64,000 nucleotides of DNA from Bacillus rhizoplanae. GTDB lineage: Bacteria > Bacillota > Bacilli > Bacillales > Bacillaceae_G. A program made the translations under genes and the position numbers. Under the pieces are notes generated by a model. That model was not told the DNA's origin. It saw only the letters and a list, made by a program, of their open reading frames with translations, and searched no databases. Of the stretch, positions 2,826 to 23,247 are shown in pieces. The DNA lies in contig NZ_CAKJTI010000008.1 of assembly GCF_917563915.1 (NCBI RefSeq), positions 62,001-126,000 on the forward strand, read 5' to 3'. The stretch's first letter is position 1. The number at the start of each line of letters is the position of its first letter.

Positions 2826-2887
2826 TTTGCAAACTACTCATTGTGTGTTATAATAGTGCAAAAATATTTGCTTACAAATTTATATGC

Positions 2888-3124
2888 ATGCGATGAGAAA
2901 GAAGAGTACATATTGAAGCAATTTCAGAGAGCTTGTGGTCGGTGAAAACAAGTAATTGTACAGTATGGAATGGGCTTTTGAGCACCAAACCGAAACGCTT
3001 TAGGAGTAGGCTTTGGCGTTACATCCAACGTTACAATGGATAAAGAGATTTTGCGTTAGCAAAATAATTAGGGTGGTACCGCGGTCCATTCGTCCCTATT
3101 TTTAGGGATGAATGGGCTTTTTTG
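2888..3124 (+). promoter_or_regulatory. T-box riboswitch leader of trpS (tRNA-Trp sensing)
   Basis: The leader contains the hallmark T-box sequence AGGGTGGTACCGCG (3070-3083), which pairs with the uncharged tRNA acceptor end. The antiterminator region runs directly into a strong terminator hairpin (arms GTCCATTCGTCCCT and AGGGATGAATGGGC, followed by a T-run ending near 3124). The specifier is probably TGG at 2966-2968, in the sequence CAGTATGGAATGGGC on the 3' side of Stem I. That matches tryptophan and the trpS gene downstream. Confidence 0.93.
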
Positions 3125-9717: not shown

Positions 9718-9779
9718 TTTATCCCGCTATTCGCGGGCAGTAAGACCCCAGGTGGGGGATGAAAAAAACCTCCACTGAT
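9718..9779 (-). repeat. bcr1-like element, deleted and joined to operator region
   Basis: Begins TTTTATCCCGC, carries the CCCGC/GCGGG hairpin and the CCCAGGTGGGGG piece, then CCTCCACTGAT. The expected TTCACTTTAT end is replaced by the operator palindrome. Confidence 0.75.
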
Positions 9780-9820
9780 TGGTCAACAGTCATTTCAGTT
9801 GACTGTTGACCAATCAGTCA
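9777..9820. promoter_or_regulatory. 39-bp palindrome plus TetR operator 2
   Basis: Two perfect 16-base arms (GATTGGTCAACAGTCA at 9777-9792 and TGACTGTTGACCAATC at 9800-9815) flank a seven-base spacer. The right arm runs into TGACCAATCAGTCA (9807-9820), the second copy of the 14-bp operator motif. Confidence 0.7.
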
Positions 9821-9838
9821 GTTATACTTTGTTCGTTA

Positions 9839-9852
9839 TGACCGATTAGTCA
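9839..9852. promoter_or_regulatory. Predicted TetR operator 3
   Basis: TGACCGATTAGTCA ends 24 bases before the pump's ATG, where a bound repressor would block transcription initiation or elongation. Confidence 0.65.
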
Positions 9853-9876
9853 GTTGCAATAAAAAGGAGTGTACAG

Positions 9877-12800
9877 ATGAAGAAGATTATTAACTTTTCG
9901 TTAAATAACAAGTTCGCAGTCTGGTTATTAACGATTATTATTACGATTGCAGGAATCTATTCTGGTCTTCGCATGAAGCTAGAAACAATCCCGGATATTA
10001 CCACACCACTTGTAACAGTAACAACTGTTTATCCTGGTGCTACTCCAGCTGAAGTAGCAGAAAAGATTTCGAAACCAATCGAACAACGACTGCAAAACTT
10101 AAATGGGGTAAACGTTGTAAGTTCCTCTTCTTTTCAAAACGCATCTTCTATTCAAGTAGAATATGATTTTGATAAAAATATGGAAAAAGCAGAAACAGAA
10201 GTTAAAGAGGCACTCGCTGACTTACCTTTACCAGAAGGCGTAAAAGAACCGAAAGTTTCTCGCCTTAGCATCAACGCTTTTCCTGTTATGTCATTAAGTG
10301 TGACAAGTAAGAATGAGTCTCTTGCACAGCTGACAAAACGAGTGGAAAAAGATATTGTTCCAGGCTTAGAAGGACTAGACGGCGTTGCATCTGTTCAAAT
10401 TTCAGGTCAACAAGTTGAAGAAGTACAGCTTGTCTTCAACGAAGAGAAAATGAAAGAATTAGGGCTAAGCGAAGATACAGTTAAGAACATGATTAAAGGC
10501 TCTAATGTTTCTATGCCGCTAGGACTGTATACATTTAAAGATAAAGAAAAATCAGTTGTTGTAGATGGCAACATTACAACATTAAGCGCTTTAAAAGAAA
10601 TGAAAATCCCGCTGATTCCTTCTACAAACCAAGGAAGTTCACAGGGGCCAACTCAGGCGCAGCAGCCTAATATGAATTCCGCTGCAATGGGACAAGGATT
10701 AGCAATTCCAACTGTAGAATTGCAAGATATTGCCGACATTAAACAAGTTGGGAAAGCAGAGTCCATCTCGCGTACAAACGGAAAAGATGCAATCAGCCTT
10801 CAAATTGTCAAAGCTGCTGATGCAAATACCGTTGACGTTGTAAATGCCGTAAAAGATAAAGCACATGACTTCGAAAAGAAATTTGATGACATCGAAATCA
10901 TTTCAACATTTGACCAAGGTGCACCAATTGAAAAATCAGTAAGCACAATGTTAAGTAAAGCTATTTTTGGTGCTATTTTCGCTGTTATTATCATCATGTT
11001 GTTCTTACGTAACATTCGAACAACGCTTATTTCCGTTGTTTCAATTCCACTTTCTTTATTAATTGCAATTTTACTGTTAAAAGAAATGGATATTACATTA
11101 AATGTTATGACGCTTGGGGCAATGACCGTCGCTATCGGCCGCGTTGTCGATGACTCAATCGTTGTTATTGAAAACATTTACCGGCGCATGGCTTTATCCA
11201 ACGAAAAATTAAAAGGAAAAGACTTAATTCGCGAGGCAACGAAAGAAATGTTCGTTCCGATTATGTCATCTACAATCGTAACCATCGCGGTCTTCTTACC
11301 ACTTGGTCTTGTTAAAGGAATGATCGGTGAACTATTCTTACCGTTTGCTTTGACAATTGTTTTCGCCTTATTAGCTTCGCTTCTTGTAGCTATTACAATC
11401 GTTCCGATGATGGCGCATTCTTTATTTAAAAAAGAAAGTACGAAAGAAAAACAGCAGCATACTCACGAAGAGCAGCCAAGTAAACTTGCTAATGGATATA
11501 AACGCCTTCTAGAATGGGTATTAAACCATAAAATTATTACATCTAGCATCGCGGTTTTATTATTAGTAGGAAGCATTGCTCTTATCCCAATTGTAGGCGT
11601 AAGTTTCTTACCATCTGAAGAAGAGAAAACAGTAATTGCATCTTATAATCCAGCACCTGGACAAACATTACAAGATGTCGAAAGCGTTGCAACAAAAGCA
11701 GAAGATTACTTTAAGAAAAAGAAAGATGTAAAAACGATTCAATTCTCACTTGGCGGAGAAAACCCGATGAGTCCAGGTAACTCAAACCAAGCATTATTCT
11801 TTGTTCAATATAAAAACGATACAAAGAACTTTGAGAAGGAAAAAGAAAACGTTGTTAAAGACCTGCAAAAGATGACAGACAAAGGAGAATGGAAAAACCA
11901 AGACTTCTCATCTAGCGGAAGCAGTAATGAAATTAAGTTATATGTATACGGCGACACCTTACAAGAGATTGAACCTGTCGTAAAAGACATTAAAAATATC
12001 ATGAAAAAAGATAAAACGTTAAAAGATATCGACTCCAGCCTTGCAAAAACATACGATGAATACACATTAGTCGCAGATCAAGAGAAATTAAGTAAGCTTG
12101 GGCTAACTGCTGCACAGGTAGGCATGGGACTTTCTGACTCTCACGAACGCCCTGTCTTAACAACAGTAAAAGAAGATAACAAAGAGATGAACGTGTATGT
12201 TGAAGTTAACAAACAAAATTACGAAAACATCGATGATTTAACAAATCGAAAAATACAAACACCGCTTGGCACAGAAGTGGCTGTAAAAGATGTTATGACT
12301 GTAAAAGAAGGAGAAACGTCTAATACAATAACAAGACGTGATGGCCGCGTATATGCGGAAGTAACTGCAAAACCAACAACAGATGATGTAGCAAAAGCTT
12401 CTAGAAACATTCAAGAAGAAGTAAATAAGATGGACTTACCATCTGGCATTGATGTTTCGATGGGCGGCGTATCTAAAGATATTCAAGAATCCTTTACACA
12501 ACTTGGCTTAGCGATGTTAGCTGCAATTGCGATTGTATACTTCGTTCTCGTTATAACATTCGGCGGAGCACTTGCACCATTAGCGATTTTATTCTCGCTT
12601 CCATTTACAATAATCGGTGCCGTTGTTGCCTTATTAATTTCCGGTGAAACATTAAGCATCTCTGCAATGATTGGTGCCCTCATGTTAATCGGGATCGTCG
12701 TCACAAACGCCATCGTATTCATTGATCGTGTCATTCATAAAGAACGCGAAGGGTTTACAACACGCGAAGCATTACTAGAAGCTGGTGCAACAAGATTACG

Positions 12801-21858: not shown

Positions 21859-22038
21859 TTATGGTCTTCTTTTATATGTCCATTGTCTGTTTTGGTTTGT
21901 AACTCCTGGAAATTTATCTCCAGCAGAGAGCTTTACCATTTTCGGATCCTTAACCATGCTCCCTGTCTCACCAATTTCAACATATATGCCGTCGTTTGGT
22001 GCTTTTTGACCTGCTCGGAATCGATGACTTTGTCCCAT
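21859..22038 (-). CDS. yjzC: YjzC family protein
   Basis: A 59-residue soluble protein MGQSHRFRAGQKAPNDGIYV ... TNQNRQWTYKRRP, clearly the YjzC family, whose function is unknown. I use the second ATG (22038), seven bases after AAGGAG; the first ATG is one base from it. A single-gene unit with its own terminator. Confidence 0.9.
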   Translation of the reverse strand: MGQSHRFRAGQKAPNDGIYVEIGETGSMVKDPKMVKLSAGDKFPGVTNQNRQWTYKRRP

Positions 22039-22177
22039 ATCCATTCTCCTTCCATTCCATCATTACATCTTTAGTATGTCCCATTTTAGAAAACCTTTTC
22101 TGTTATGTTTAGGAAACCATGCTCATATAATGAAATTACATATTTTTAGCAGGAAATAAATCAGTATATGTAGAAAC

Positions 22178-22242
22178 AAAAAAAACTGGCCATAACGACC
22201 AGTATCAAAGGAGAGTCAAACAACTTATTACGAGAAGATTAC
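22178..22242 (-). ncRNA. Predicted small regulatory RNA (~65 nt) with anti-Shine-Dalgarno motif
   Basis: The minus strand of the yjzC-yitU gap carries a complete transcription unit with no reading frame. It has a promoter (TTACAA/TATAAT), then about 65 nt, then a strong intrinsic terminator. The terminator stem is ACTGGTC/GGCCAGT (7 bp with one G-U pair, five-base loop) followed by seven to eight Ts ending at 22178. No minus-strand gene lies upstream for that terminator to serve. The transcript contains CTCTCCTTT (22215-22207), an exact complement of the ribosome site AAAGGAGAG. This is a common mode of Gram-positive sRNAs. Confidence 0.55.
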
Positions 22243-22248
22243 ACTCTC

Positions 22249-22278
22249 ATTATAAACACGATAATCTGTTCATTGTAA
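22249..22278 (-). promoter_or_regulatory. Predicted promoter of the small RNA
   Basis: Minus-strand TTACAA (22278-22273), 18-base spacer, perfect TATAAT (22254-22249). Transcription would start near 22242. Confidence 0.55.
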
Positions 22279-22437
22279 CCCTTTTCACAAATTGTACAAA
22301 ATGAAAGAAACATTATTCTAACTTTCAGAAAACAACTTGACTTTTCCGTTTACCAGTGACAAATAGTGGACAGCACAAGAATGTAGGAATTAAGATGAAT
22401 ATAATACACAAAACTTTTTATAAAAGGTGAGAGACGC

Positions 22438-23247
22438 ATGAAAAAACAACATTTAATTGCATTAGATTTAGATGGTACTTTACTTACAGATCAAAAAATG
22501 ATTTCAGCGCGTACAAAACAAACTATCGCAAAAGCAAAAGAACAAGGTCATATCGTTGTTATTTCAACCGGTCGTCCATTTCGTGCGAGTCATGCATATT
22601 ATAAAGAACTTAGCTTAAACACACCAATCGTCAATTTCAACGGCGCATACGTCCATCACCCACTTGATAGAAATTGGGGAACACATCACTCTCCGCTTGA
22701 ACTTGCTACTGCGCAAGAAATCGTTCGCGCATGTATGGATTTTGGGGTAGAAAATATTTACGCGGAAGTGATTGATGATGTATATGTAAAACAAATTGAT
22801 GCAGATAAAAAACATATTTTCGAATTTGGTTCACCTAAAATTTTCACAGGTGATTTACTCGACATTTTACAAGAACACCCAACTTGTTTATTAATCGATG
22901 CACACGAGTCAAAATCAAATTCTATCCGCCAGCATTTAACGGATATGCATGCAGAGGTAATCGATCACCGAAAATGGGGCGCTCCTTGGCCGATTATTGA
23001 AATTGTAAAAAGCGGGTTAAATAAAGCAATTGGCTTACAAAGAATTTCAAGTTACTACAATATCCCAAAAGAACATATCATCGCATTTGGTGATGAAGAT
23101 AACGATTTTGAAATGATTGAATTTGCCGGGCACGGAATTGCAATGGGGAACGCCATTCCAGAATTAAAATCATTAGCAAATCACGTGACATTATCAAACG
23201 AAGAAGACGGAATTGCTCTTTATTTAGAGGAGGTACTTGGATTGTAA
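22438..23247 (+). CDS. yitU: Cof-type HAD-IIB phosphatase (YitU-like)
   Basis: Cytoplasmic phosphatase of 269 residues, HAD subfamily IIB. Motif I is DLDGT at residues 10-14 (nucleophile Asp10), motif II STGR, motif III the Lys in SGLNKA, and motif IV GDEDNDFEM. All four are intact. The cap is the Cof type. B. subtilis YitU has been linked to flavin-phosphate dephosphorylation, but the substrate here is inferred only. AAAAGGTGAG precedes the ATG. The next genes (DUF3813, yitT) match the B. subtilis yit region. Confidence 0.88.
   Translation: MKKQHLIALDLDGTLLTDQKMISARTKQTIAKAKEQGHIVVISTGRPFRASHAYYKELSLNTPIVNFNGAYVHHPLDRNWGTHHSPLELATAQEIVRACMDFGVENIYAEVIDDVYVKQIDADKKHIFEFGSPKIFTGDLLDILQEHPTCLLIDAHESKSNSIRQHLTDMHAEVIDHRKWGAPWPIIEIVKSGLNKAIGLQRISSYYNIPKEHIIAFGDEDNDFEMIEFAGHGIAMGNAIPELKSLANHVTLSNEEDGIALYLEEVLGL

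Follow-up and report, generated by a model that had tools for sequence, protein, structure and literature searches.

A probable small RNA gene of about 65 nt with invariant C/U-rich segments in Bacillus rhizoplanae and four relatives

The minus strand between yjzC and yitU, in a stretch of 64,000 nucleotides analysed as a whole (the window), very probably carries a genuine small RNA gene, and one that is probably unnamed so far. An upstream box, a promoter, an RNA of about 65 nt and an intrinsic terminator recur together in four relatives, and comparison with these relatives makes it likely that this is a dedicated gene for a trans-acting RNA, which would pair through two C/U-rich segments, block translation and be under redox control. 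The gene names yjzC, yitU, clpB and comK, like the placing of the window in the Bacillus cereus group, are presumptive.

Results

The minus-strand arrangement that the first-pass annotation had reported, TTACAA and TATAAT with an 18-nt spacer, about 65 nt of non-coding sequence and a terminator, is present as described (Table 1), and the relatives make a stronger case for it than had been claimed. Its real upstream edge lies at about 22298 and thus further upstream than first described. The minus-strand sequence between TATAAT and the terminator stem reads GTAATCTTCTCGTAATAAGTTGTTTGACTCTCCTTTGAT. Taken from the single genome alone, the case for an RNA unit is thin: a promoter scan did not list the promoter of the RNA, the -35 element of which is poor, and terminator-like sites numbered two in 1801 bases, against 0.9 expected. 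It is the comparison with relatives, rather than any single-genome scan, that argues for a real unit.

Table 1 Features of the small RNA unit and its neighbouring genes, with positions in the window
Feature	Position	Strand	Remark
Small RNA unit (box, promoter, RNA of about 65 nt, terminator)	22298-22178	minus	
Small RNA, about 65 nt, GUAAUCUUCUCGUAAUAAGUUGUUUGACUCUCCUUUGAUACUGGUCGUUAUGGCCAGUUUUUUUU	22178..22242	minus	kept in four relatives
Invariant 5' segment GUAAUCUUCUCGU, first 13 nt of the RNA	22230..22242	minus	identical in 5/5 sequences
Invariant anti-SD motif ACUCUCCU	22209..22216	minus	identical in 5/5 sequences
9-mer CTCTCCTTT	22215-22207	minus	read from the sequence
Intrinsic terminator, 7-bp stem and U run	22178..22203	minus	terminator scan and comparison
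Terminator hairpin ACTGGTC-GTTAT-GGCCAGT, then T run	22203-22185 (hairpin)	minus	
-10 element TATAAT	22249..22254	minus	identical in 5/5
-35 element TTACAA, weak	22273..22278	minus	18-nt spacer to -10
Box TTTGTGAAAAGGG directly above -35, ResD/Fnr/Rex-like half-site	22279..22291	minus	TTGTGAAA[AG]GG in 5/5
yjzC, same strand as the RNA	21859..22044	minus	downstream, about 130 nt past the terminator
yitU, divergent neighbour	22438..23247	plus	

With YitU as query, 64 loci were obtained (best identity 74%, none with a cereus-group name), and the unit stands upstream of yitU in three of them, from Bacillus sp. 165 (L002), Ectobacillus antri (L003) and E. funiculus (L004). When five whole genomes were searched by BLAST, these three gave E-values of 1.9e-11, 4.8e-22 and 3.9e-16, and the other two gave only E = 0.05 and 0.43. 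In the G003 family, four of 19 genomes matched at E <= 0.001, with G006 among them (E = 5.0e-23). The gene order, with clpB, yjzC and the RNA on one strand and yitU divergent, is common to the window, Bacillus sp. 165, E. antri, E. funiculus and G006. A model of the unit, R1, scored 56-93 bits in the five loci and at most 15.1 bits elsewhere (66 sources searched). The stem of R1 was one column off, which was corrected in models R2 and R3; the scan of 397 sampled Bacillales genomes was made with R1. In that scan 117 genomes reached E <= 0.05, the three known carriers all with E <= 4.1e-20 and the best of the others with 2.9e-5, and strong scores were confined to the three carriers. A strict sequence pattern was found in three of the 397 genomes (G004 lies outside this sample), and with R3, the corrected model built from five sequences, the 19-genome family yielded four hits at E <= 1.5e-16, followed by one at 0.0044.

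The nine next-best loci among the weak R1 hits elsewhere in Bacillales were viewed. Three of these hits (L095, L100 and L101) belong by eye to one protein-coding family, and L096 is a terminator region that is not near yitU. This last region (L096 1501-1569; weak R1 match, 5.0e-5) has a C-rich stretch, lies near a gene that we take to resemble general stress protein 13, and is perhaps another small RNA. Plasmid and phage collections held no match to the RNA, and nine exact-pattern matches in viral contigs resembled, by eye, unrelated sequence. In E. panaciterrae (L001, G001) no match to the RNA was obtained; unrelated sequence occupies the place upstream of yitU where the RNA gene would be, although clpB, yjzC and yitU are kept, and the RNA was therefore lost or never present there.

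Across the intergenic regions of the window and the four carriers, significant alignment spans 22176-22302 at most, and the sole stretch that aligns outside it is a 17-19-nt element near yjzC, found in L004 and L001. In these alignments the unit is a conserved island amid an otherwise largely unalignable intergenic region. The short element itself, TTTCCTAAACATAACAG (minus strand, window 22097-22116), lies above yjzC, with 17-19 nt identical in L001 and L004 and surroundings that cannot be aligned, and is possibly a promoter or operator of yjzC.

Within the unit, the -10 element, TTGTGAAA[AG]GG, GUAAUCUUCUCGU and ACUCUCCU are identical in all five sequences, and the -35 element of the relatives reads TTACAT, TTTCAT or CTACAA, at a spacing of 16-18. 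Comparison thus shows the putative promoter, the start region, the predicted open 5' half and the terminator conserved as one unit. The longer invariant 5' end GUAAUCUUCUCGU and the TTGTGAAA box above the promoter go beyond the first-pass account, which had singled out the 9-mer CTCTCCTTT as the exposed anti-SD motif; its core ACTCTCCT is kept in all five sequences, and the full 9-mer in two. All 35 cells of the terminator helix are paired, and one base pair has changed on both sides. This covariation was equalled by 204 of 500 shuffles and is therefore weak.

Transcription most likely starts at 22242, the G of GUAAUC, which places the inferred start 7-8 nt past the -10 element in all five sequences. 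In folds from this start most of the first 38 nt or so stay unpaired, apart from small weak hairpins in some sequences, which bears out the earlier proposal that the locus is a small RNA gene of its own whose anti-SD motif is exposed. Were transcription in the window to begin 6 nt further upstream, GAGAGU would pair with ACUCUC and mask it. Masking of CUCUCC by an upstream GAGAG was rejected: the GAGAG in question stands ahead of the inferred start, and none of the four relatives has it. The relatives differ by single-base indels within the RNA, which is therefore probably not peptide-coding. As would be expected of a trans-acting small RNA, the candidate has a promoter and terminator of its own, with conserved -10 element and terminator, and appears to be non-coding.

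Anti-SD motifs by nature match many Shine-Dalgarno (SD) sequences. The proposed link to comK, where the first-pass annotation had seen the ribosome site matched by the RNA, did not hold. In the window AAAGGAGAG occurs twice, where 0.68 copies are expected and two are reached by 14 of 100 shuffles, and one of the copies is the complement of the RNA itself; the match lies within chance. It is kept in none of the four carriers, whose comK start regions read GGAGGAGTG, AAGGTGGAG, AGGTGAG and AGGTGAG, and is thus not conserved. Of the first hypothesis, the RNA half survives the comparison and the comK half falls. In four genomes AAGGAGAGT stands before 36, 28, 47 and 35 start codons, against 10, 10, 12 and 12 in a reversed control, an excess that is expected of any SD-like string; the complement of the 5' segment (at most one mismatch) was found 27, 25, 38 and 26 times, against more in the reversed control (77, 48, 64 and 49).

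The names spx, yhgE, oppA, oppD, swrC and carA used below were assigned from the protein sequences and are presumptive. Among the AAGGAGAGT genes (78 coding sequences from four genomes), the sole close ortholog common to three is carA, which was set aside as a target since its AAGGAGAGT site lies inside the preceding reading frame. ABC-type ATPases also cluster there, at 24-42% identity and via internal starts. The best duplex of the 61 called window genes is that of swrC (window 9877; -23.9, z -3.15), which was likewise dropped: its three closest relatives keep at most its SD. Before this RND-type transporter gene at 9877, window 9774-9855 holds an inverted repeat made up of TGACTGTTGACCAATCAG and the complement of this sequence, together with another copy of GATTAGTCAG, resembling a TetR-family operator, and similar motifs precede the three closest relatives of the gene.

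Further candidates were sought in samples of 384-400 kb each from G002, G004 and G006, about a tenth of each genome, together with the window. They yielded 191 ortholog groups in which no genome is represented twice, any group with two genes of one genome having been dropped, and pairing statistics were computed on the 90 groups with at least three members. The seed complement GGAGAGT stands near the called start of 2 of 354 genes in G006, 9 of 345 in G002, 5 of 331 in G004 and 0 of 50 in the window. Only one of the 191 groups keeps it in at least two species, namely spx, a gene outside the window (3/3; the spx of G003 has it also). The pairing energy of spx is ordinary (mean z -0.65, with 24% of the 90 groups lower). 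By pairing energy the best group is a yhgE-like membrane protein gene, with z of -4.4 in G002, -1.2 in E. funiculus (G004), where pairing is weak, and -4.4 in G006. Its mean of -3.3 was reached by the best group of none of 100 column-shuffled RNAs, and the RNA pairs with the SD as well as with the first codons in G002 and G006. Next come oppA, whose group is strong in G006 alone, and oppD. Over the whole set, three genes have z < -3.5 against a shuffle mean of 0.54 (reached by 6 of 100), and 6 of 100 shuffles have an equally low mean z over all groups. No target was kept by both tests, seed complement and pairing energy, in every carrier tested; spx, the yhgE-like gene and the opp genes are candidate leads rather than established targets. 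In three genomes the new RNA, spx and RsaE are grouped within 27-47 kb (G006:C1:3385125-3413594, G002:C12:552502-579242 and G004:C66:50325-97023).

The box above the promoter resembles the half-site of ResD. Its left half TTGTGAAA is invariant in all five sequences, and the right half is not kept in the relatives. TTGTGAAA[AG]GG occurs once in the window against 0.14 expected, and 12 of 100 shuffles have one copy. The box is also similar, as a likeness only, to the Fnr consensus TGTGA-N6-TCACA in the form given in Table 1 of PMC8151001 and to the Rex consensus TTGTGAAW4TTCACAA, which stems from S. aureus (as printed in PMC2883068); the ResD consensus given in PMC8151001 is different and longer. 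At most two mismatches to the Rex palindrome are found at three window sites including the box, against 0.71 expected (three reached by 4 of 100 shuffles), and at most one mismatch to the Fnr pattern at three sites including the box, against 2.26 expected (37 of 100 shuffles). In four of the five RsaE loci looked at, out of six, TTTGTGAAA is placed 76-77 nt upstream of the RsaE marker sequence, and RoxS of B. subtilis is described in PMC5419742 as induced by ResDE and repressed by Rex. The likeness of the box, the presence of TTTGTGAAA above RsaE and the control of RoxS by ResDE and Rex make redox control of the new RNA a reasonable conjecture, not a finding.

Discussion

The conserved parts of the unit suggest how a dedicated small RNA could act. 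Through GUAAUCUUCUCGU at its 5' end and through ACUCUCCU it would pair with first codons and with ribosome binding sites rich in purines, by which the translation of several mRNAs could be blocked, and an oxygen, NO or redox regulator at the TTTGTGAAA box would control its synthesis, as is known for RsaE/RoxS. Perhaps, though this more specific version is doubtful, a family of small RNAs not yet described, shared by the cereus group and Ectobacillus, has its first representative here: a redox-controlled RNA with two separate seeds for SD and first codons, whose targets include the thiol-stress regulator gene spx. If true, this would be a second redox-controlled riboregulator next to RsaE/RoxS. 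In any case an RNA that is conserved on the chromosome and has short invariant segments, and possibly a redox-type promoter, offers a defined object for tests of post-transcriptional control.

As the unit is followed by yjzC on its own strand, both in the window and in all four carriers, it could instead be a leader or attenuator of that gene, with a terminator that stops transcription ahead of yjzC and a regulated read-through. However, terminator and yjzC are separated by approximately 130, 300, 100, 220 and 100 nt, a roughly threefold range without a fixed link to the gene, and the intervening stretch is unalignable save for the 19-nt element common to the window and L004. In addition, the lowest-energy folds of the 63-66-nt RNAs (up to 75 nt) contain the terminator and no strong competing or antiterminator helix within the RNA, and L001, L020, L029 and L063 keep this order of clpB, yjzC and yitU but have no model match. 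The variable spacing and the lack of a strong competing helix in the RNA itself make attenuation of yjzC unlikely. A small RNA that acts by binding protein, for example by titrating Hfq or CsrA, rather than by pairing is also improbable. Its very short length and its single stable hairpin with a U tail would suit such a role, whereas no repeated protein-binding motif (such as GGA in loops) is seen by eye and what is conserved consists of C/U-rich segments that stay mostly unpaired, as pairing seeds do.

The new RNA lies 27-47 kb from RsaE in G002, G004 and G006 and shares the TTTGTGAAA box with it, which would fit a diverged copy of RsaE/RoxS. This origin is largely refuted and must be held very improbable: RF01820 is not listed at the locus at E <= 10, a separate RsaE gene is present in six of six genomes searched, the local alignment score between the two RNAs was reached by 127 of 1000 shuffles, and the new RNA sequences hold CUCC but neither the UCCC seed motif nor the CCCC motif of RsaE. 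A promoter and a terminator that met by chance and have no function would agree with single-genome scans that lie near expectation; since the whole unit is kept in four relatives against largely unalignable flanks, this is hardly credible and is refuted by the conservation unless the alignment is an artefact.

Comparison with known small RNAs

No Rfam family reached threshold at the RNA site, and a lax search (window 22040-22440, E <= 10) returned low-scoring unrelated families only. Elsewhere in the window, positions 2884-3100 hold a T-box leader (RF00230, 145.9 bits), downstream of which stands a gene that we take to resemble trpS. In FsrA and the LhrC-type C/U-rich small RNAs, unpaired C/U-rich motifs act against Shine-Dalgarno sequences, as proposed for the new RNA, whose locus matches none of the Rfam families.

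XrrA, XrrB and XrrC of B. anthracis are small RNAs of the same bacterial group as the source of the window. XrrC has 95 nt and XrrA and XrrB 129-139 nt as first reported, all being plasmid-borne (pXO1) and AtxA-controlled according to the available portions of PMC7843513, PMC8407390 and PMC3987803. The new RNA, in contrast to these pXO1 RNAs, adjoins clpB, yjzC and yitU, and blastn of a plasmid collection gave no match. The RNAs described for this group in the portions available are XrrA, XrrB and XrrC, the antisense RNA YhfH and transcribed repeats (PMC3446304, PMC3425587, PMC8407390, PMC7843513, PMC3987803, PMC9037596, PMC10989752), and the same portions make no mention of this locus. Titles and abstract openings among the matches listed for small RNAs describe no RNA at this place, and no paper of the literature searched, supplementary tables aside, contains any of five short sequences taken from the RNA or from the complementary strand. 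To the extent of these portions, publications on the group deal with plasmid-borne small RNAs and one antisense RNA, and the new RNA is chromosomal.

RsaE/RoxS (RF01820) provides a close parallel. Its model has 112 positions, as opposed to the approximately 65 nt of the new RNA, its members in these genomes have CCCC/UCCC motifs and a GTGAA...TTCAC palindrome near their start, and it is a separate gene without detectable sequence homology to the new RNA. What the two have in common is that of a trans-acting RNA of Firmicutes, as predicted for the new RNA, with C-rich segments, an intrinsic terminator and, in most RsaE loci looked at, the same TTTGTGAAA upstream.
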